A DNA stretch of 12,216 bases from an uncultured Roseburia sp. Its GTDB lineage: Bacteria > Bacillota > Clostridia > Lachnospirales > Lachnospiraceae. A model generated the notes under the pieces. That model worked only from the letters and a program-made list of their open reading frames with translations. It made no database searches and was not told the origin of the DNA. Of this stretch, positions 133 to 8,818 are shown in pieces (position 1 is the stretch's first letter; each line of letters starts with the position of its first letter). Location: contig CAMENQ010000034.1 of the NCBI GenBank assembly GCA_945928585.1, forward strand, positions 1-12,216. Reading direction: 5' to 3'. Position numbers and translations under genes: made by a program.

Positions 133-1932
133 TTGGTTGAAAATATGTTGAATTTTAAGAAACAGACATACATTTCCATAGCCAGAAGCGAGGAAATAAA
201 CGAACAGAAGGCAGCAGAGGAAAAGGAATCCAGACAGATAAACAGAAAGGTGGGCAGTGGAGCTGTTATTCACAGTGCAAACACAGCACCGTCTGTTCCT
301 GAAGGATTGTATATAAAATGTGGTAACTGTGGAGATGCAGTGCTTTCTGAAGATGTGGAGAATGCTAATCATACATGTCCAAAGTGCGGTTATAACTTCC
401 GAATAGGAGCATATCAGAGACTTGATATGGTTCTGGATGAAGGAAGCTTTGAGGAATGGAATAAAGAGCTTGTTACAGATAACCCGTTAAAGTTTAAGGG
501 TTACGATGAAAAGCTTACAGTACTTAAAGGAAATACAGGATTAAGCGAGGCTGTCATTACAGGAAAGGGAGCTATTCATGGTATGGAGCTTGCCATAGGA
601 GTATGTGATTCAAGATTTCTTATGGGAAGCATGGGTGAAGTAGTAGGTGAGCGTATAACACGTATGGTGGAAAAAGCCACAGAGGAAAAGCTTCCTGTAG
701 TTATATTTGCATGCTCAGGTGGAGCAAGAATGCAGGAGGGTATAGTTTCTCTTATGCAGATGGCAAAGACATCACAGGCACTTAAGCGTCATGCACAGGC
801 AGGACAGCTTTATGTATCGGTACTTACAGATCCTACTACAGGTGGTGTAACAGCCAGCTTTGCCATGCTTGGAGATATTATACTGGCAGAGCCGGGGGCA
901 CTTATAGGCTTTGCAGGACCTAGAGTAATCGAACAGACCATAGGACAGAAGCTTCCTGAGGGATTTCAGCGTTCAGAGTTTCTTTTGGAAAAGGGACTTA
1001 TAGACGGTATCGTAAAGAGAAGCGAATTAAGACATGTCCTTGGTGAAATTATTCGTATGCACACCGTAAAGACTGATAAAATAAATACATACGACCATTA
1101 TATAAAGAAAAACGCACCGATTGCATCTATTCCGCTTAAGGATAGCAATGCAATGAAGGCATGGGACAGGGTACAGGTTTCAAGAAGTGCTACAAGACCT
1201 ACGGCTATGGACTATATTTCCATTATATTCAAGGATTTTATAGAGCTTCATGGAGACAGGGCATTTAGAGATGACGGAGCTATTATAGGCGGTATAGCCA
1301 CGGTAGGCGGTAAGCCGGTAACTGTTATTGCACAGCAGAAGGGCAAAAATACAAAAGAAAATATATTAAGAAACTTTGGAATGCCTTATCCTGAAGGTTA
1401 CAGAAAGGCACTGCGACTTATGAAGCAGGCTGAGCAGTTTAACAGACCTATAGTATGTATCGTGGATACTCCGGGTGCATTCTGTGGTATAGAGGCTGAG
1501 GAAAGGGGTCAGGGCGAAGCTATTGCAAGAAATCTTTACGAAATGTCTGCTTTAAAGGTACCTATTGTAACTATTGTCATAGGTGAAGGCGGCAGCGGCG
1601 GAGCACTAGCCATGGCAGTGTCAAATGAAGTATGGATGCTTGAAAATGCCACATATTCCATTTTAAGTCCTGAAGGCTTTGCTTCTATTTTGTGGAAGGA
1701 TGCCAAGAGGGCAAATGAAGCAGCAGAGGTTATGAAGATAACTTCTAAAGATTTACTTGCACTTAAAGTAATAGAAAAGGTTATACCTGAAACTGTTCCG
1801 GCCGGAGAGCAGAATATATATGACATTTCCGGATATATGAAGAATTATATTAAGGAGTTTTTGTCAAAGTACAAAAATAAGAGTCCTGAGGAAATTGTTA
1901 ATGAAAGATATGACAGATTCAGAAGCTTTTAG
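133..1932 (+). CDS. accDA: Acetyl-CoA carboxylase carboxyltransferase, fused beta-alpha (AccD-AccA)
   Basis: This 599-residue protein joins both carboxyltransferase subunits, which move CO2 from carboxybiotin to acetyl-CoA to give malonyl-CoA for fatty acid synthesis. Residues about 58-300 are AccD: a zinc ribbon with C63, C66, C82 and C85 (CxxC-x15-CxxC), then the crotonase-like core with SGGARMQEG (195-203). Residues about 341-599 are AccA: GDRAFRDD, the [16 protein letters not shown] block, [16 protein letters not shown] (445-460), [10 protein letters not shown] (484-493) and [10 protein letters not shown]. The linker (about 301-340) replaces most of the N-terminal helical region of stand-alone AccA. 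The start is taken as TTG at 133, because GGCGGAAAGG lies 5 nt upstream; the ATG at 145 is too far from it. About 35 polar residues precede the usual AccD start. accC lies directly upstream, so the two are probably co-transcribed. No clear terminator follows; the thiC promoter begins 6 nt after the stop. Confidence 0.96.
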
Positions 1933-1967: not shown

Positions 1968-1992
1968 AAGAGCGTTAATTTGAAAAATAAAA

Positions 1993-2076
1993 TATATGCA
2001 GGGGTACTGTTTTACAGTTGAGAGATACCCTTAGAACCTGTTTAGTTAATACTAGCGTAGGGAGCAAACTGATATA
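1993..2076 (+). promoter_or_regulatory. TPP (THI-box) riboswitch aptamer
   Basis: The conserved THI-box elements appear in order: GGGGTA (2001-2006) pairing with TACCC (2026-2030); a short ACTGT/ACAGT hairpin between them; the TGAGA loop motif (2019-2023); AACCTG (2035-2040); a small hairpin TAGT/ACTA; and the hallmark AGCGTAGGGAGC (2054-2065). TATAT (1993-1997) and ATATA (2072-2076) can close the outer P1 helix. The aptamer binds thiamin pyrophosphate and lies upstream of thiC, the first committed enzyme of the pyrimidine branch. It is followed by an intrinsic terminator, so it should switch transcription off when TPP is plentiful. Confidence 0.95.
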
Positions 2077-2153
2077 ACGCAAACCATAAAATAAAGCTTA
2101 TTATAGAGTGAAGCTTTTGATATGAGACTGAAAAATCTGTAATTAAGCATAAG

Positions 2154-2188
2154 ACCTACGTGTATTTAGCTGTACCCGTAGGTTTTTT
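2154..2188 (+). terminator. Riboswitch-controlled intrinsic terminator in the thiC leader
   Basis: ACCTACG (2154-2160) pairs with CGTAGGT (2177-2183) around a 16-nt loop, followed by a T run to 2188. The 5' arm CCTACG (2155-2160) is equally complementary to CGTAGG in the aptamer (2056-2061). Pairing with the aptamer would serve as the antiterminator, and TPP binding would free the arm to form the terminator. A separate AAAGCTT/AAGCTTT hairpin (2093-2117) lies between aptamer and terminator. The mechanism is inferred from the sequences. Confidence 0.85.
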
Positions 2189-2196
2189 GCATATTA

Positions 2197-2291
2197 CTAA
2201 AGCAACAGCGTGAAATTAAGAAACTAAAAATTCGCGAATGCGAATTTATAAGTGCCAAAGGAACTAAAGTTCCTGCCTGGCGGCACTTTTT
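2197..2291 (+). repeat. Dispersed double-hairpin repeat, copy 1 (in the thiC leader)
   Basis: This is the first of three near-identical elements in the window (others at 8417 and 8529). It opens with a conserved block free of obvious pairing, starting CTAAAGCAACAGCGTGAAAT. A perfect 8-bp hairpin follows: AAATTCGC (2228-2235), loop GAAT, GCGAATTT (2240-2247). Last comes a larger hairpin with outer arms AAGTGCC (2250-2256) and GGCACTT (2282-2288), an inner stem AGGAAC/GTTCCT (2259-2274), and a T run to 2291. The last hairpin has the form of an intrinsic terminator on the + strand. This copy lies after the riboswitch terminator and 55 nt before thiC, in the transcribed leader. I do not recognise the family by name. 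Confidence 0.9.
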
Positions 2292-2345
2292 ATGAGAGGA
2301 TACATAGTCTTCACAAAATAAATTAAAAGCAAGGAGAAAATAACT

Positions 2346-3659
2346 ATGAAAGAATATTACACACAGATGGAAGCAGCAAAAAAAGGTATAATTACCCCAC
2401 AGATGAAAATAGTAGCCGAGAAGGAAAATATGGATGTAAACGACCTTATGGCACTTGTTGCAAAGGGAGAGGTAGCTATTCCTGCAAATATAAATCATAA
2501 GTCATTAAGTCCGGAGGGTATTGGTACAGGCCTTAAGACAAAAATAAATGTAAACCTTGGAATATCAGGAGACTGCAAGGATTATACAATGGAGATGGAA
2601 AAAGTAGATATGGCTATTGCATATGGTGCTGAGGCCATAATGGATTTAAGCAACTATGGAAAGACAAATACATTCAGAAAGCAACTTATAGAAAAATCAC
2701 CTGCAATGATAGGTACAGTTCCTATGTATGATGCCATAGGTTATCTTGAGAAGGATTTACTTGAGATAACTGCAGAGGATTTCCTTAAAGTAGTAAGAGC
2801 CCATGCAGAAGAGGGTGTTGACTTTATGACTATTCATGCAGGCATAAATAAGAGAGCAATAGAAAGCTTCAAGCGTGAAGGACGAAGAATGAATATCGTT
2901 TCAAGAGGAGGTTCTCTTCTTTTTGCATGGATTGAAATGACAGGAAATGAAAATCCGTTTTATGAGTATTATGATGAAGTTCTTGATATATTAAGAGAAT
3001 ATGATGTTACAATAAGCCTTGGCGATGCGCTGAGACCGGGATGTATAGATGACAGTACAGATGCAGGTCAGATTTCAGAACTGATAGAGCTTGGCAATCT
3101 TACAAAGAGAGCATGGGATAAAGATGTACAGGTAATGGTAGAGGGACCGGGACATATGGCATTAAATGAAATTGCGGCAAATATGCAGCTTCAAAAGAGA
3201 ATATGCCACAATGCACCATTTTATGTACTTGGACCATTAGTTACGGATATTGCACCGGGGTATGACCATATTACATCAGCCATAGGCGGAGCTATTGCAG
3301 CTACGGCAGGAGCAGATTTCTTATGTTACGTTACACCGGCAGAGCACTTAAGACTGCCTGATGCAGCTGATGTTAAGGAAGGTATCATCGCCAGCAAGAT
3401 AGCAGCACATGCAGCAGATATCGCAAAGGGAATAAAAGGAGCAAGAGATATTGACAATAAGATGTCGGATGCAAGACACAGGCTTGACTGGGAGGAAATG
3501 TTTAAGTATGCTTTAGATCCAGAGAAAGCCAGAAGATATTATGAAAGTACACCGGTATCAGAGAGACATACATGCTCTATGTGTGGAAAAATGTGTGCCG
3601 TAAGAACTACAAATATGATACTTGAAGGTAAAAAAGTAGAGTTTTGTACAGAAAAATAA
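2346..3659 (+). CDS. thiC: Phosphomethylpyrimidine synthase ThiC (short form)
   Basis: ThiC is a non-canonical radical-SAM enzyme that rearranges 5-aminoimidazole ribotide into hydroxymethylpyrimidine phosphate, the pyrimidine half of thiamin. The 437-residue protein is the compact form typical of clostridia and archaea, without the N-terminal extension of the E. coli type (about 630 aa). Recognisable blocks include [77 protein letters not shown] and [12 protein letters not shown]. The C-terminal cluster-binding cysteines are C410, C413 and C417. They are spaced CxxC-x3-C, one residue shorter than the CxxC-x4-C of the well-studied enzymes. ATG 2346 has AAGGAG (2331-2336) 9 nt upstream. The gene stands alone behind the TPP riboswitch. 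The 192 bases after it hold no clear terminator, only a weak AATTTT/AAAATT dyad near 3717. Confidence 0.97.
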
Positions 3660-3744
3660 AAGAATTAATCTTCAAAAATCGACACAATTACACACTAAAC
3701 CTATATGAAATAAGTAATTTTTAGGTAAAATTTGGATAAAATAC

Positions 3745-3772
3745 TTTACAGATTATGTTTTTTCCTTATAAT
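3745..3772 (+). promoter_or_regulatory. Sigma-A type promoter for the two-component/hflX operon
   Basis: TTTACA (3745-3750, five of six consensus), a 16-bp spacer and a perfect TATAAT (3767-3772). Transcription would start near 3780, giving a leader of about 70 nt before the response-regulator ATG at 3852, in a very AT-rich stretch. Confidence 0.7.
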
Positions 3773-3851
3773 TAATTATGTAAGAATAAAATGAATAGTT
3801 TTTATGTATTATTTTTAAATTTCTAATAATTATTATAAGGAGAAAATAAAA

Positions 3852-4535
3852 ATGCTAGTATATGTGGTGGAGGATGACCCGGGTATCAGTGAAATTGAAT
3901 GCTATGCTTTAGAGTCAAATAATTATAATGTAAAACCTCTTTTTACCGTGAGTGAATTAAGAAAAGCGTTAAAAGACAGGATTCCTGATTTAATAGTATT
4001 GGATATTATGCTGCCTGATGATGACGGCATTGTTGTTGTGGAAAAAATAAGAAAAAACGAACTGCTGAAAAAAACTCCAATTATTCTTGTGTCGGCAAAA
4101 AGCAGTGAAATAGAAAAAGTAAAGGGCTTTGATGCCGGAGCAGATGATTATCTTACAAAGCCTTTCGGGGTTATGGAATTTAGTTCAAGAGTTAAAGCCC
4201 TGATAAGGAGAGCAGGTATAGCAGATGGTAGTGAAGAAGAAAAGAAACACTGTCTGACAACAGGAAATATATCTATTGACGAACAGAAAAGAGAAGTATA
4301 TTGCAATAAAGAGTTGGTAGTTCTTACATATAAAGAATATGAATTATTGAGATATCTCATTATAAACAGGGGAATTGTTTTATCAAGGGACAAGATTATG
4401 GAAAACGTTTGGGGATTTGATTTTCAAGGGGAATCAAGAACAGTAGATATGCACATAAAAACCCTTCGTGCAAAGCTTGGGAAGGAAAAAGACATAATAA
4501 AAACAGTCAGAAATGTAGGATATAAAATAATATAA
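3852..4535 (+). CDS. OmpR/PhoB-family response regulator
   Basis: A 227-residue DNA-binding response regulator. Residues 1-120 form a receiver domain with the acidic pocket E7/D8/D9, the phospho-acceptor D51 in VLDIMLP, the switch serine S81 in LVSAK, and K103-P104 in DYLTKPFG. Residues about 132-227 form a winged-helix transcription-activation domain with LTYKEYELLRYLI, the recognition helix around SRTVDMHIKTLRAKLG, and the C-terminal hairpin VRNVGYKII. All catalytic residues are present, so it should be phosphorylated. ATG 3852 has AAGGAG (3837-3842) 9 nt upstream. A histidine kinase gene follows after 27 nt and is its likely partner. The regulon and signal cannot be told from sequence; KdpE, PhoP and VanR share this layout, so I give no gene symbol. 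Confidence 0.95.
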   Translation: MLVYVVEDDPGISEIECYALESNNYNVKPLFTVSELRKALKDRIPDLIVLDIMLPDDDGIVVVEKIRKNELLKKTPIILVSAKSSEIEKVKGFDAGADDYLTKPFGVMEFSSRVKALIRRAGIADGSEEEKKHCLTTGNISIDEQKREVYCNKELVVLTYKEYELLRYLIINRGIVLSRDKIMENVWGFDFQGESRTVDMHIKTLRAKLGKEKDIIKTVRNVGYKII

Positions 4536-4562
4536 GCGTCAAATATGAAAGGGAATATAGAC

Positions 4563-5225
4563 ATGGATAATAAGGAAATAATAAAAATGTCTGCCCATGA
4601 AATGAATACACCAATTGCAGTTATTCATGGGTATGCAGATTTGATTGGCTGTGGAATAATAAAGGGTGACGGCGCCAGAAATATGGCGGTAAAAATTAAA
4701 AATGAAGCTAAGAGACTTTCAAGATTGGTAGAAGAAATGTCTGTGTACACAGGAATAATGGAAGGTTCTATTTATAGTGAAAAAGTACAGATTGATATAA
4801 AGAGTACATTAAATCAGATTGTTGAAAAAATAAAGGAAGATACAAAATACAATTTTTTTATTCAGATTGCAGGCGAGGGAAGCGTATATGCAAATAAGGA
4901 ATTGTTTAAAATACTTATGAAACATATAATTGAAAATGCTATTATATATAATGAAAATGAGGAGCGGAAAATACTGTGCAACATAACCTTTGAGGGAGAT
5001 AAGCTGACAATTACCATAGATGACAATGGTGTTGGCATAAGGGAGGATGAGAGAGAATCAGTGTTTGAATGCTTTTACAGGGAGGATAAAGAACATTCCA
5101 GAAAGCTTGGGGGAAATGGAATGGGACTGGCTGTATGTAAGTCAATAGCAAATGCAGAGAATATGAATATATTTATTTCTGACAGCAGTTTGGGAGGTAC
5201 ACGAATTACTGTGGAGAAGATATAA
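4563..5225 (+). CDS. Small cytoplasmic sensor histidine kinase
   Basis: A 220-residue histidine kinase reduced to its catalytic core. The dimerisation/phosphotransfer helix carries the H-box SAHEMNTPIAVIHGY, with phospho-acceptor H12. The ATPase domain shows the N box IIENA (N125), the G1 box DDNGVG (153-158), an F-like segment VFECFYRE and the G2 box GGNGMGLA (183-190). I see no transmembrane segment, signal peptide, HAMP or PAS domain: the protein begins directly before the H-box. HEMNTP departs from the usual HELRTP. I chose ATG 4563 because AAAGGG (4548-4553) lies 9 nt upstream. An in-frame ATG at 4545 would add six residues but has no ribosome binding site. It follows the response regulator by 27 nt and precedes hflX by 15 nt, so it is probably co-transcribed with both. 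Confidence 0.92.
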   Translation: MDNKEIIKMSAHEMNTPIAVIHGYADLIGCGIIKGDGARNMAVKIKNEAKRLSRLVEEMSVYTGIMEGSIYSEKVQIDIKSTLNQIVEKIKEDTKYNFFIQIAGEGSVYANKELFKILMKHIIENAIIYNENEERKILCNITFEGDKLTITIDDNGVGIREDERESVFECFYREDKEHSRKLGGNGMGLAVCKSIANAENMNIFISDSSLGGTRITVEKI

Positions 5226-5240
5226 TTGAGAGGTAAATAA

Positions 5241-6500
5241 ATGTACGATATAAATGAGGAGCAGGAAAGAGTTATTCTGGTGGCAGTAAGCGACGGAAGG
5301 GATGACAACACTGAAGAATCTGTTGATGAACTGGAAGAGCTTGTGGCTACGGCAGGAGCAGTTACTGTGGGAAAACTTATCCAAAACAGGGAAAAGATTC
5401 ATCCCGGAACATATATTGGAAAAGGAAAAATAGATGAACTGAAGGATTATATAAGAACTCTTGAGGCTACAGGCATAGTGTGTGATGACGAATTGTCTCC
5501 GGCACAGCTTAAGAATCTGGAGGAAGCACTGGAAATTAAGGTGATGGACAGGACTCTTATAATTCTTGATATATTTGCAGGAAGAGCACTTACAAGAGAA
5601 GGAAAGATACAGGTTGAACTGGCACAGCTAAAGTACCGTTCGGCAAGACTTGTAGGACTTAGAAGCTCTCTTTCAAGGCTTGGAGGAGGCATAGGAACAA
5701 GAGGCCCCGGTGAAAAAAAGCTTGAAATGGATAGGAGACTTATAAGTGACCGGATAGCAAAACTTAGAAGTGATGTGGAGGAGCTCGTAACTCACAGAGA
5801 GCTTGCCAGGGAAAAAAGAAGTGTTAATCCTATTCCAGTTATAGCCATAGTGGGCTATACTAATGCAGGAAAATCCACACTTTTGAACACCTTTACAAAC
5901 GCTAAGGTATTAGAGGAGGATAAGCTTTTTGCCACCCTTGATCCGACTACAAGAAATTATAAGCTTCCAAATGGTCAGGAGGTGCTTCTTACGGATACAG
6001 TAGGGTTTATAAGAAAACTTCCCCATCACCTTATAGACGCCTTCCGTTCTACACTGGAGGAGGCTAAATATGCTGATATCATACTTCACGTGGTAGACAG
6101 CTCAAATCCATCATATGAATCACATATGGAGATAGTGTATGATACCCTGAAACAGCTTGGAGTGGAGGATAAAAAGATAGTTACATTCTTTAATAAGCAG
6201 GACAGACTTGAAGATGGAGGCAGCTATTTATTTAAGGACGAAAAGGCAGATTATACTGCAGCAGGCTCCATAAAAACAGGAGATGGGGTAGAAGATCTTT
6301 TGAATATTATTGAAAAAATACTTAGTGAGAGAAGTGTGTTTATTGATATAATTCTCCCATACAGTGAGGCAGGAAAAATACAGATTATAAGGCAGTATGG
6401 ACAGCTTTTAAGCGAAGAATATGTGGAGAATGGTGTTCATGTAAAGGGAAATATTCCTAAGGAGTTTGAGAGCAGATTTGTATCAGTGCAGATATCCTGA
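5241..6500 (+). CDS. hflX: Ribosome-associated GTPase HflX
   Basis: A 419-residue Obg/HflX-class GTPase. HflX binds the large ribosomal subunit and, in studied bacteria, splits stalled or heat-damaged ribosomes. Residues 1-190 form the N-terminal HflX domain with the GTYIGKGKIDEL motif (56-67) and the glycine-rich GGGIGTRGPGEKKLE stretch (148-162; most homologues have GPGET/Q). The G domain shows G1 GYTNAGKST (205-213), the switch I threonines in LDPTTR, G3 DTVGF (252-256), G4 NKQD (318-321) and a G5-like SIKTGDG. The C-terminal beta domain ends FVSVQIS. GAGAGG (5228-5233) lies 7 nt before ATG 5241. Lying 15 nt after the kinase gene, it is likely in the same operon. Its last codons and stop lie inside a 49-bp imperfect duplication. 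Confidence 0.97.
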   Translation: MYDINEEQERVILVAVSDGRDDNTEESVDELEELVATAGAVTVGKLIQNREKIHPGTYIGKGKIDELKDYIRTLEATGIVCDDELSPAQLKNLEEALEIKVMDRTLIILDIFAGRALTREGKIQVELAQLKYRSARLVGLRSSLSRLGGGIGTRGPGEKKLEMDRRLISDRIAKLRSDVEELVTHRELAREKRSVNPIPVIAIVGYTNAGKSTLLNTFTNAKVLEEDKLFATLDPTTRNYKLPNGQEVLLTDTVGFIRKLPHHLIDAFRSTLEEAKYADIILHVVDSSNPSYESHMEIVYDTLKQLGVEDKKIVTFFNKQDRLEDGGSYLFKDEKADYTAAGSIKTGDGVEDLLNIIEKILSERSVFIDIILPYSEAGKIQIIRQYGQLLSEEYVENGVHVKGNIPKEFESRFVSVQIS

Positions 6501-6576
6501 CACCATGATATCAATATAAGAGCAGAATGTTTCAATACAGATATCCTGAACCTTTGATACCAATATCATTACAGAA
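6479..6576 (+). repeat. 49-bp imperfect tandem duplication at the hflX 3' end
   Basis: Bases 6479-6527 and 6528-6576 align end to end without gaps, 37 of 49 identical by hand count, including the shared dodecamer CAGATATCCTGA and a shared terminal CAGAA. The first copy holds the last HflX codons and its TGA stop. The second is non-coding spacer, except that it lies in the same frame as the following dihydrofolate reductase gene. It looks like an old local duplication of the hflX end. Confidence 0.75.
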
Positions 6577-6592
6577 AAGCGAGGAAGATGAA

Positions 6593-7087
6593 ATGAACTT
6601 AGTAGTAGCGGCAGATAAAAACTGGGCGATTGGAAATAAGGGACAGCTTCTTGTATGTATCCCTGAAGATATGAATAATTTCAGAAGACTTACAGAAGGA
6701 CATACAGTTATATATGGAAGAAAGACATTGGCTACTTTTCCAAACGGAAAACCTTTAAAAAACAGGGAAAATATTGTCCTTTCAGGAAAGAATATTAAGC
6801 CTTCAGATGGTGTGAAGGTGGCAGGAAGTATAGAAGAGGTTCTTGAACTTGCAAAGGAATACAGGGACGAGGATCTTTTTGTTATAGGTGGTGCAAGTGT
6901 ATATGAACAGCTTTTGCCGTATGTGGATACTGCTTATGTTACTTATATAGATTATGCTTATGATGCTGACGTATATTTTCCTAATCTGGATAAATCAGAT
7001 GAGTGGGTAATGACAGAGACAAGCGAGGAGCAGACATATTTTGATGTTGAGTATTATTTCAGAAAGTATGAGAGAAAGAAGTGCTGA
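6593..7087 (+). CDS. folA: Dihydrofolate reductase
   Basis: Reduces dihydrofolate to tetrahydrofolate with NADPH. The 164-residue length fits the bacterial chromosomal family. The N-terminus MNLVVAADKNWAIGNKGQLL carries the family's AxDxxxAIGxxGxLL pattern. PEDMNNF supplies the catalytic acid (D26, equivalent to E. coli D27), YGRKTLATFP is the NADPH/substrate loop, and FVIGGASVYEQLLP is the glycine-pair NADPH-binding motif. The tryptophan usually found five residues before the catalytic acid is replaced by V21. I place the start at ATG 6593: GAGGAAG lies 6 nt upstream and this gives the canonical N-terminus. An in-frame ATG at 6527 would add 22 residues encoded by the duplicated spacer, unlike the family. 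The gene lies 92 nt after hflX with no terminator or good promoter between. No thymidylate synthase gene is adjacent. Confidence 0.96.
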   Translation: MNLVVAADKNWAIGNKGQLLVCIPEDMNNFRRLTEGHTVIYGRKTLATFPNGKPLKNRENIVLSGKNIKPSDGVKVAGSIEEVLELAKEYRDEDLFVIGGASVYEQLLPYVDTAYVTYIDYAYDADVYFPNLDKSDEWVMTETSEEQTYFDVEYYFRKYERKKC

Positions 7088-7143
7088 TTTACCTGTTATG
7101 AAAAATCCGGCCAATGCTCTTTCAATTTTTTACCTCCAAAGTA

Positions 7144-7172
7144 TTGACATATGTTTTGATTAAAATTAAAAT
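7144..7172 (+). promoter_or_regulatory. Sigma-A type promoter for ilvE
   Basis: A perfect TTGACA (7144-7149), a 17-bp spacer and TAAAAT (7167-7172, five of six consensus). Transcription would start near 7179, leaving a leader of about 97 nt before ilvE. Confidence 0.8.
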
Positions 7173-7275
7173 ACTTACTTAAGGCAAGTGTTTTTTTAAG
7201 TAGGAGTCTGCTTGAATTAATATGACCGCAAGATTATCTCCGCTTTAGCGACGGAAGTGAAATGGAGGCAGAAAA
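7173..7275 (+). other. ilvE 5' leader, structured, function unknown
   Basis: The leader can fold at its start: CTTACTTAA (7174-7182) pairs with TTAAGTAGG (7196-7204), nine pairs including one G-U, with T-rich sequence in the loop. Further down, TCCG/CGGA or the tighter CGC-TTTA-GCG can form around 7237-7253. I find no T-box (no AGGGTGGNACCGCG), no riboswitch consensus that I recognise, and no leader peptide rich in Ile, Val or Leu. The ribosome binding site TGGAGG (7263-7268) lies 7 nt before the ilvE ATG. Confidence 0.35.
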
Positions 7276-8304
7276 ATGGAAAAGAAAAATATTGACTGGT
7301 CAAACTTAGGCTTTGGCTACATTAAGACAGATAAGAGATATGTGTCACTCTACAAGGACGGACAGTGGGATGATGGTACACTTACAGATGATGATACTAT
7401 TACAATCAGTGAGTGCGCAGGCGTACTTCAGTATGCACAGACAGTATTTGAGGGACTTAAGGCATATACTACAGAGCAGGGAAAGATAGTAACCTTCAGA
7501 CCTGACTTAAATGCAAGCCGTATGAAGGACTCAGCAGCAAGACTTGAAATGCCTGTATTTCCTGAGGATAGATTTATTGACGCAGTAGTTCAGACAGTAA
7601 AGGCAAATGCAGCATATGTTCCGCCATATGGTTCAGGTGCCACACTTTATTTAAGACCTTACATGTTTGGCTCAAATCCTGTTATAGGTGTAAAGCCTGC
7701 TGATGAATATCAGTTCAGAGTATTCTGTACTCCTGTAGGTCCATACTTTAAGGGTGGAGCAAAGCCTATTACTATTAAGGTTTCAGATTTTGACAGAGCC
7801 GCACCTCACGGAACAGGTAATATAAAGGCAGGACTTAATTATGCTATGAGTCTTCATGCCATAGTTACAGCGCATAAAGAAGGCTTTGACGAAAATATGT
7901 ATCTTGACCCGGGTACAAGAACAAAGGTAGAGGAGACAGGCGGTGCAAACTTCTTATTTGTTACAAAGGACGGAAAGGTAGTTACACCTAAGTCAGACAG
8001 TATTCTTCCATCTATCACAAGACGTTCTCTTGTATATGTTGCTAAAGAATATCTTGGACTTGAAGTAGAGGAAAGAGAAGTATTATTTGACGAAGTAAAG
8101 GATTTTGCAGAGTGCGGACTTTGCGGAACAGCAGCTGTTATTTCACCTGTAGGAAAGATTGTTGACCATGGAAAGGAAATCTGCTTCCCAAGCGGTATGG
8201 AGGATATGGGACCTGTTACAAAGAAACTGTATGAGACACTTACAGGTATCCAGATGGGAAGAATAGAAGCTCCTAAGGGATGGATAAAGGAAATAGAACT
8301 GTAA
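7276..8304 (+). CDS. ilvE: Branched-chain amino acid aminotransferase
   Basis: A 342-residue fold-type IV PLP aminotransferase of the larger branched-chain subgroup. It interconverts leucine, isoleucine and valine with their 2-oxo acids using glutamate/2-oxoglutarate. Visible motifs are QTVFEGLKAY (55-64), FRPDLNASRM, YLRPYMFG, and GTGNIKAGLNYA with the Schiff-base lysine K184. Further motifs are EETGGANFLFV (219-229) and the phosphate-binding GTAAVISPVG (284-293). A CxxC pair (C280, C283) immediately precedes the GTAA motif. It is not at the position of the redox CxxC of human BCATm, as far as I can align it. ATG 7276 has TGGAGG 7 nt upstream. The gene has its own strong promoter and terminator and appears monocistronic. 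No other branched-chain biosynthesis gene is in the window. Confidence 0.96.
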   Translation: MEKKNIDWSNLGFGYIKTDKRYVSLYKDGQWDDGTLTDDDTITISECAGVLQYAQTVFEGLKAYTTEQGKIVTFRPDLNASRMKDSAARLEMPVFPEDRFIDAVVQTVKANAAYVPPYGSGATLYLRPYMFGSNPVIGVKPADEYQFRVFCTPVGPYFKGGAKPITIKVSDFDRAAPHGTGNIKAGLNYAMSLHAIVTAHKEGFDENMYLDPGTRTKVEETGGANFLFVTKDGKVVTPKSDSILPSITRRSLVYVAKEYLGLEVEEREVLFDEVKDFAECGLCGTAAVISPVGKIVDHGKEICFPSGMEDMGPVTKKLYETLTGIQMGRIEAPKGWIKEIEL

Positions 8305-8347
8305 GATTTATGAAATATAATAAATATACATAAAGATTTTTATGGAG

Positions 8348-8400
8348 CTGTCGCAATAAACCCCAGATTTCAGGCGGGAGGTTATTGCGGCAGTTTTTTT
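8348..8400 (+). terminator. Intrinsic terminator of ilvE
   Basis: CTGTCGCAATAA (8348-8359) pairs with TTATTGCGGCAG (8382-8393), a 12-bp stem with a single T-G pair, followed by seven T residues (8394-8400). It lies 43 nt after the ilvE stop and is the clearest terminator in the window. Confidence 0.93.
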
Positions 8401-8416
8401 ACATAATAGGAAATTC

Positions 8417-8512
8417 CTAAAGCAACAGCGTGAAATTAAGGAACTAAAAATTCGCGAATGCGAATTTATAGGTGCCAAAGGAACCAAAGTTCCTGCCGTG
8501 CGGCACCTTTTT
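8417..8512 (+). repeat. Dispersed double-hairpin repeat, copy 2
   Basis: This copy is nearly identical to copy 1 at 2197. It has the same opening block (CTAAAGCAACAGCG...), the same AAATTCGC-GAAT-GCGAATTT hairpin (about 8448-8467), and the same distal hairpin. The distal outer arms are GGTGCC (8471-8476) and GGCACC (8502-8507), with an inner AGGAAC/GTTCCT stem and a five-T tail (8508-8512). Where copy 1 has a compensated A-T pair at the stem base, this copy has G-C, which suggests that pairing is conserved. It can act as a + strand terminator between the convergent ilvE and DUF378 genes. Confidence 0.9.
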
Positions 8513-8528
8513 GCTTAAGAGAAAATGC

Positions 8529-8607
8529 CTAAAGCAACAGCGTGAAATAAAGAAACTAAAAATTCGCGAATGCGAATTTATAGGTGCCGCTGCCGTGCGG
8601 CACCTTT
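8529..8607 (+). repeat. Dispersed double-hairpin repeat, copy 3 (shortened)
   Basis: It starts 112 nt after copy 2 and shares its opening block and the AAATTCGC-GAAT-GCGAATTT hairpin (8560-8579). The 17-nt inner hairpin of copy 2 (AAAGGAACCAAAGTTCC) is replaced by GC. The result is a perfect 8-bp stem GGTGCCGC (8583-8590)/GCGGCACC (8597-8604) with a TGCCGT loop. It overlaps the TAA of the minus-strand DUF378 gene (8606-8608). Read on the minus strand, the two hairpins follow that stop directly, and the second ends in a short T run, so it is a plausible DUF378 terminator. Confidence 0.88.
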
Positions 8608-8818
8608 AGCTTTCAAGAGCACTTGTAACTCTGCCATAAAGACTTATTAAGTACAATCCGCATAAGCCGACTACAGCATAAATTATTCTTGATATAAGTG
8701 ACATATCGCCAAATAGTAAAGCTATAAGATCAAGCTTAAAAAAACCTACAAGTCCCCAGTTTATTGCACCGATTATGGCAATTGTAAGAATCGTATAGTC
8801 TAAGCCCTTTGTATTCAT
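8606..8818 (-). CDS. Small two-helix membrane protein, DUF378 (YuzA-like)
   Basis: A 70-residue hydrophobic protein with two predicted transmembrane helices (about 7-27 and 42-61). It carries the motif IGAINWGLVGFF (16-27), the signature of the DUF378/YuzA family, and an LDLIALLFG segment between the helices. The family's function is unknown; B. subtilis YuzA is the reference member. On its own strand AAAGGAGGT lies 7 nt before the ATG. A weak minus-strand promoter candidate (TTGTTT at 8895-8890, AATAAT at 8872-8867, 17-bp spacer) lies about 50 nt upstream. It is the only minus-strand gene here, divergent from the HlyD-like gene and convergent with ilvE. The repeat pair 8417-8607 lies at its 3' end. 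Confidence 0.92.
   Translation of the reverse strand: MNTKGLDYTILTIAIIGAINWGLVGFFKLDLIALLFGDMSLISRIIYAVVGLCGLYLISLYGRVTSALES

Follow-up and report, generated by a model that had tools for sequence, protein, structure and literature searches.

Gene context of the repeat copies

The stretch of DNA analysed here (the window) comprises 12,216 nucleotides (nt) of an uncultured Roseburia sp. (GenBank assembly GCA_945928585.1, contig CAMENQ010000034.1) and contains three copies of a small structured repeat. Copy 1 lies between a thiamine pyrophosphate (TPP) riboswitch and thiC, and copies 2 and 3 stand in tandem between a class IV aminotransferase gene, which we take to be of the branched-chain type, and a DUF378 gene on the opposite strand (Table 1). 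The repeat belongs to a genuine family of small modular units that bear a terminator and are spread patchily. Its structure, distribution and sites point to a non-autonomous small mobile repeat of ~100 nt, which was probably amplified in this species.

All three copies are present where the initial annotation had placed them, and the hairpin P2, described there as perfect with a GAAT loop, is perfect in each. BLASTN with copy 2 (8410-8512) as query matched the window at 2193-2291 and 8523-8588, and a covariance model of the family recognises every copy (Table 1). Folding of the + strand gave z-scores against shuffles of -2.74, -3.26 and -3.74 for the three copies. The native terminator hairpins in front of copy 1 (-11.1 kcal/mol, abutting the T-run) and copy 2 (-18.6 kcal/mol) are both missed by a simple terminator scan. 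Elsewhere in the window, acetyl-CoA carboxylase apparently has its carboxyltransferase beta and alpha parts (PF01039, PF03255) fused in one open reading frame (ORF) at 133-1932.

Table 1. Coordinates of the repeat copies, their parts and neighbouring features in the window
Feature	Position	Strand	Basis
TPP riboswitch aptamer, upstream of thiC, context of copy 1	1990..2080	+	Rfam RF00059, 68.3 bits
Native riboswitch terminator ACCTACG...CGTAGGT, T6, directly 5' of copy 1	2154..2188	+	sequence
Copy 1, whole unit	2183..2291	+	sequence, BLASTN, fold; model match 2175-2292, E 1.6e-12
Copy 1, parts	T-run 2183-2188; degenerate left box; head from 2197; P2 2228-2247; long P3 2251-2288; T-run to 2291	+	sequence
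thiC, downstream of copy 1	2346..3659	+	PF01964
Class IV aminotransferase, upstream of copies 2 and 3	7276..8304	+	PF01063
Native terminator after the aminotransferase gene, ends T7, directly 5' of copy 2	8346..8400	+	sequence
Copy 2, whole unit	8395..8512	+	sequence, BLASTN, fold; model match 8395-8512, E 9.6e-16
Copy 2, parts	T-run to 8400; box ATAATAGGAAATTC 8403-8416; head from 8417; P2 8448-8467; long P3 8470-8508; T-run 8508-8512	+	sequence
Copy 3, in tandem with copy 2	8507..8609	+	sequence, BLASTN; model match 8507-8609, E 1.4e-17
Copy 3, parts	degenerate left end; head from 8529; P2 8560-8579; P3 8582-8605; only T3	+	
DUF378 gene, TAA stop 8606-8608 abuts P3 of copy 3	8606..8818	-	PF04070

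Structure of the unit

The unit of ~100 nt consists of a T-run, a AATAGGAAA box, a head, hairpin P2, terminator hairpin P3 and a second T-run, in this order. It exceeds the extent first noted by the left T-run and the AATAGGAAATT box, the box being degenerate in copies 1 and 3. The consensus of 41 copies from the own genome of the window (G000) reads TTTTTTATATAATAGGAAATTCC, TAAAGCAACAGC, a variable stretch, P2, ATAAG, P3 and a T-run. P2 (AAATTCGC-GAAT-GCGAATTT) and the head part AAAGCAACA are nearly invariant in these copies, and since P2 hardly varies its pairing is uninformative within the genome. The P3 stem has ~9 bp in its common form and is followed by a short T-run. Within G000, 36 cells are changed on both sides of a pair, 35 of them in P3, as against 9.8 in shuffles.

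Covariation of the arms is also seen in relatives, where 75 distinct sequences carry double changes at all ten pairs of P2 and all nine of P3 (19/19). P2 and P3 cells are paired in 92.4% of cases as compared to 71.1% when shuffled, on an alignment fitted to, and so biased towards, the model; for P3 on an unfitted alignment the values are 99.2% and 77.2%. The P2 sequence varies between genera while a GAA-type loop is often kept, and the left box is common to several genera.

The head had been described as unpaired. A small third hairpin nevertheless occurs in some heads, with stems of at least four pairs in 16 of 61 heads tested versus 6.1 in shuffles. P2 is absent from some copies. The head types are combined with P3 types in many ways, and there are hybrid P3 stems, so modules appear to have been exchanged between copies. 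Tandem and inverted pairs of units are also seen, tandem units sharing one T-run. No terminal inverted repeats were seen when the ends were compared by eye. Palindromic left boxes (box plus inverted box) lie just past the element T-run at two other loci (L357 ~107-130, L298 ~2347), as if the left end doubled as an inverted repeat; they are unexplained. A flank CCTTTTGACACC(C/T)TAAT precedes the element at L014, L223, L263 and L291, in three genomes, and in two different Lachnospiraceae genomes (2150 on the minus strand of L037, 7961 on that of L253) the element is followed by a further module, TATATAATAGGAAATTCCTCC with an arm GAGGAATCT.

Judged by its sequence and covariation, P3 looks like an intrinsic terminator on the + strand. 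All three copies have this second hairpin, described initially as ending in a T run, yet copy 3 is followed by only three T on that strand. It is nevertheless in copy 3 only that the simple scan calls P3 on the + strand; the same scan calls the A/U-rich minus-strand P2 in copies 1 and 3 and not in copy 2. The bidirectional termination first proposed is supported only in part.

Two functional proposals were dropped: antitermination through head CAGCG and P3 CGCTG, noticed by eye, in view of head changes such as CAACG without compensation in P3, and a promoter in the left end (TATAAT of the own genome), whose -10-like hexamer is by eye not kept in other genera and has no conserved -35. Upstream of the element no conserved promoter was found, column frequencies 5' of the T-run being flat and promoter scans being at chance in the window. 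Rfam scans of the window, of locus L107 (see below) and of six relatives' loci gave no match on the element at the gathering score, and none exceeded that score with relaxed E-values.

Copy number and distribution

The own genome is a 2.39 Mb draft assembly. BLASTN with copy 2 gave 61 matches at E<=1 there, fragments included. The covariance model built from the 41 copies gave 138 matches at E<=1 and 108 at E<=0.001, counts that are lower bounds because scoring covered only 150 of the 1645 first-look candidates; the 30 weaker matches (E>0.001) were left out of later counts. Among congeners, three matches at E<=1 were obtained in G003 and none in G001 or G002.

Beyond the genus, the left box combined with the P3 loop pattern was found in 5 of 397 Lachnospiraceae genomes, the reversed control in none. 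A cross-genus model, with 10 candidates scored per genome, recovered the element at E<=1e-4 in 15 of the 397 sampled genomes and 13 of 334 genera. Thus the family extends well past the three copies first noted, both in its own genome and in relatives. Of the refuting conditions named at the outset, neither a genome limited to three copies, nor absence from relatives, nor arms without covariation holds. A first, narrower pattern had no matches in public contigs, a set from which the own records may be missing; with a wider one, among the matches listed, the element records belong to Lachnospiraceae assemblies or lie close to them, and single matches in unrelated phyla were taken for chance. Two queries gave no match to plasmids and one query, taken from a relative and not from the window, gave none to phages. 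Viral contigs had no match to the strict pattern and one further match that was taken for chance. No description of such a repeat in Lachnospiraceae was found in open-access full-text literature, which is weak evidence of novelty.

Placement relative to genes and terminators

Genes were taken from simple ORF calls. Among the 108 copies in G000, 22 overlap an ORF of at least 70 aa by more than 25 nt and were left out of the site classes; most of these ORFs are read as extended upstream of the true start. The midpoint lies well inside an ORF of at least 100 aa in 3 of 108 copies, one of which (on contig C304) falls in the upstream extension of a ThiS gene. Both neighbours are known for 57 distinct sites: the genes are codirectional with the element at 25 of them, convergent at 15, codirectional against the sense of the element at 15 and divergent at 2. 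Divergent sites are rarer than in background gaps (2/57 versus 10/52, p 0.013), and the upstream gene has the sense of the element at 48 of 66 sites (p 0.0003). The initial proposal of a small dispersed, mobile-looking element, intergenic and at gene ends, is supported.

Of the 46 copies in G000 that could be tested, 24 have a hairpin directly 5' of their left T-run, with 8.2 expected from shuffles (42 copies without a T4 run, 16 tandem copies and 4 that were too short were left out). It was present in 20 of 33 copies with a codirectional upstream gene and in 2 of 10 with an opposite one. Two sets from other genomes, with five copies in common, gave 23/31 versus 8.5 expected (from 39 copies, 7 without T-run and 1 tandem) and 20/32 versus 7.7 (from 42, 5 without T-run, 3 tandem and 2 short). 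Many insertion sites are, by their sequence, putative terminator T-runs, and a T-run alone can apparently serve.

At the other end, 33 of 108 G000 copies share part of their 3' T-run with the stop codon of an opposing ORF, using a looser ORF limit. Where an opposing ORF stop lies within 300 nt, the overlap is found for 27 of 53 elements versus 1 of 8 native terminator-like sites, a control that is too small. The association of element T-runs with opposing stop codons is suggestive.

Comparison of sites with a congener

About 1.35 Mb of G003 were compared with 90 element sites of G000, and both flanks were syntenic at 24 of the 90. Of these, 13 had element-free spacing (within 40 nt), one had filled spacing and 10 had neither. 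The thiC site is among the misfits, with 1 kb of other sequence 5' of the riboswitch in G003; from the T-run of the riboswitch terminator to the thiC ATG there are 157 nt in the window and 57 nt in G003. Another misfit, 42 nt off, is L107 (G000, C304), where the element directly follows the T-run of a terminator hairpin common to G003, 5' of a ThiS gene (PF02597; ORF 1280-1474, minus strand). A second TPP riboswitch had been supposed there and was not found by an Rfam scan of the locus. The DUF378 product ends in GRVTSALES in the window and in GRVSNAIEN in G003; these ends match, which identifies the same gene end without element in G003. At L108 the element follows a stop codon and the site in G003 has no T-run; the left T-run may thus be part of the element itself in some cases. 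Gain in G000 is favoured over loss in G003 because G001 and G002 are without the element.

Median identity among copies of one genome is 0.82-0.96 in 10 of 11 genomes versus 0.58 between genomes; G000 was not included in this comparison, two of the ten genomes contribute a single pair and many loci come from pattern searches.

Weighing of the explanations

The preferred reading, a small non-autonomous mobile repeat, brings these observations together as follows. The element would insert within T-runs or beside them, in many cases where the T-run follows a terminator hairpin, and its mover would be an enzyme acting in trans. P3 and its T-run would rebuild the target, so that further units could be added head to tail. 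Each copy would add a terminator on the + strand and perhaps a weak one on the minus strand, so that insertions would survive mainly downstream of genes.

Several results weigh against this reading. The own assembly, in 369 contigs, has a completeness of 84%; no mobilising gene was found, and none of the element loci examined contained a convincing autonomous copy in which an ORF separates the left end from P3. In the comparison with G003, 11 of 24 sites miss the element-free length by more than 40 nt, and the spacer itself is unaligned at several sites of fitting length. The left T4 run is missing in 42 of 108 copies, and T-runs at both ends hide any target site duplication. The expectation for hairpins was derived from shuffles and not from other intergenic T-runs, so terminators that stand at gene ends anyway could account for the excess. 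In G090 the identity within the genome (0.57) is no higher than between genomes. Within G000 the pairs with double changes (5 versus 4.0 shuffled) and the pair types (12 versus 12.5) are at shuffle level, which means that P3 covariation in this genome rests on few linked changes.

Covariation in relatives, conserved head parts and a 3' terminator would suit a functional structured RNA, either a multi-copy small RNA or a module of 3' untranslated regions, kept by selection and spread by duplication and gene conversion, and the reassortment of head and P3 types is what gene conversion would produce. We consider this unlikely in view of the missing upstream promoter signals, the element-free spacing at many G003 sites and match numbers that range from none (G001, G002) through three (G003) to more than 100 (G000). 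Intrinsic terminators that have come to resemble each other by convergence or local duplication are scarcely credible as an explanation: P3 alone is an ordinary terminator, but near-invariance of P2 and AAAGCAACA in 41 copies and a left box held by several genera do not fit.

The identity of the mover distinguishes two further possibilities. An element of the repetitive extragenic palindromic (REP) or REPIN type, or one derived from IS200/IS605, would be moved by a Y1 (HUH) transposase. Small size, palindromes and hairpins, intergenic location downstream of genes, ends without visible inverted repeats and tandem or inverted pairs all agree with such a route. The Y1 domain PF01797, however, gave no match in G000 or in the carriers G003, G063 and G154. 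It does match in G001 and G002, neither of which showed the element, and in the carrier G372, whose copy has an internal stop; the TnpB-type domain PF07282 was likewise without match in G000. Insertion at terminator-like T-runs, T-runs at both ends and a unit ending at its own terminator recall a retro-element, in which P3-terminated RNA would be copied into T-runs by a reverse transcriptase, much as group IIC introns target terminators. Group IIC introns are far larger than the ~100-nt unit. Reverse transcriptase (PF00078) was absent from the searches of all five carriers (G000, G003, G063, G154, G372) and of G001, its three matches all being in G002, and no group II ribozyme reached the Rfam gathering score in the window, L107 or six relatives' loci. 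With Y1 in one of five carriers and reverse transcriptase in none, both routes are disfavoured: the REP-type route is very improbable and the retro-element a shade more so.

It is possible, if doubtful, that the mobile repeat represents a class of its own that homes to terminators: a 100-nt unit entering the T-runs of intrinsic terminators by means of an enzyme that is neither Y1 nor reverse transcriptase, and rebuilding its target 3' so that arrays could grow. Patchy in Lachnospiraceae and unusual in its left box and in its preferred targets, the family offers a concrete search for a new transposition route. More than 100 terminator-bearing matches, mostly at gene ends, could reshape transcription across the genome of a gut commensal. 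Two copies stand just upstream of thiamine genes, namely thiC behind the TPP riboswitch in the window and ThiS at L107, where no riboswitch was found. Copy 1, placed as it is between the riboswitch terminator and thiC, may lower thiC expression.

Comparison with known repeat systems

Published families are compared here through excerpts of their descriptions. A survey of 40 genomes lists stem-loop repeat families such as Clop-1 (93 nt), Clot-1 (74 nt) and bcr1 (PMC2267715). Like the present element they are intergenic structured repeats with tens of copies, some of them in Firmicutes; compared by description only, they differ in that no Lachnospiraceae are named for them in the excerpt of PMC2267715.

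REP or miniature inverted-repeat transposable element (MITE) had been the terms first offered for the element, and in the strict sense neither is supported. REPs are palindromes of 20-40 bp tagged GTAG or CGTC, those of the GTAG type being thought to be moved by REP-associated tyrosine transposases (RAYTs) (PMC3733652). The element shares with them palindromic structure, high copy number and a mostly intergenic position between codirectional and convergent genes, as described in the excerpt of PMC3733652. It differs by a unit of ~100 nt, by a conserved AATAGGAAA box and head, judged by eye, instead of the GTAG/CGTC tag, and by an own assembly without Y1/RAYT match. A MITE would have the terminal inverted repeats that were not seen by eye here.

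Group IIC introns insert at intrinsic terminator motifs and use a reverse transcriptase (PMC4424553). A hairpin precedes the left T-run of the element in 24/46, 23/31 and 20/32 copies of the three sets, the other sites having a T-run alone or none, and insertion at terminators may be a feature in common. According to the excerpt of PMC4424553 these introns are ribozymes, whereas the element has neither a ribozyme match nor a reverse transcriptase in its five carriers.

The BOX element of pneumococcus is built of boxA, a variable number of boxB and boxC (PMC3049150). Both are small modular repeats with an optional internal module, as P2 can be absent here and head and P3 types reassort. In contrast to BOX, for which the excerpt of PMC3049150 states none, the present element has a 3' terminator, a difference drawn from description only. 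SPRITE, an interspersed repeat of Firmicutes, is described in the excerpt used as an 18-bp duplex with a long U-rich tract. It likewise resembles intrinsic terminators, is dispersed and is enriched near gene 3' ends, features that are found here as well. Set apart by description, the element differs from SPRITE by its left box, head, second hairpin, P3 stem of ~9 bp and short T-run, and by occurring in another bacterial family. On the features tested, compared by description, it is a member of neither SPRITE nor BOX; in kind, these two excerpted families are its closest counterparts.

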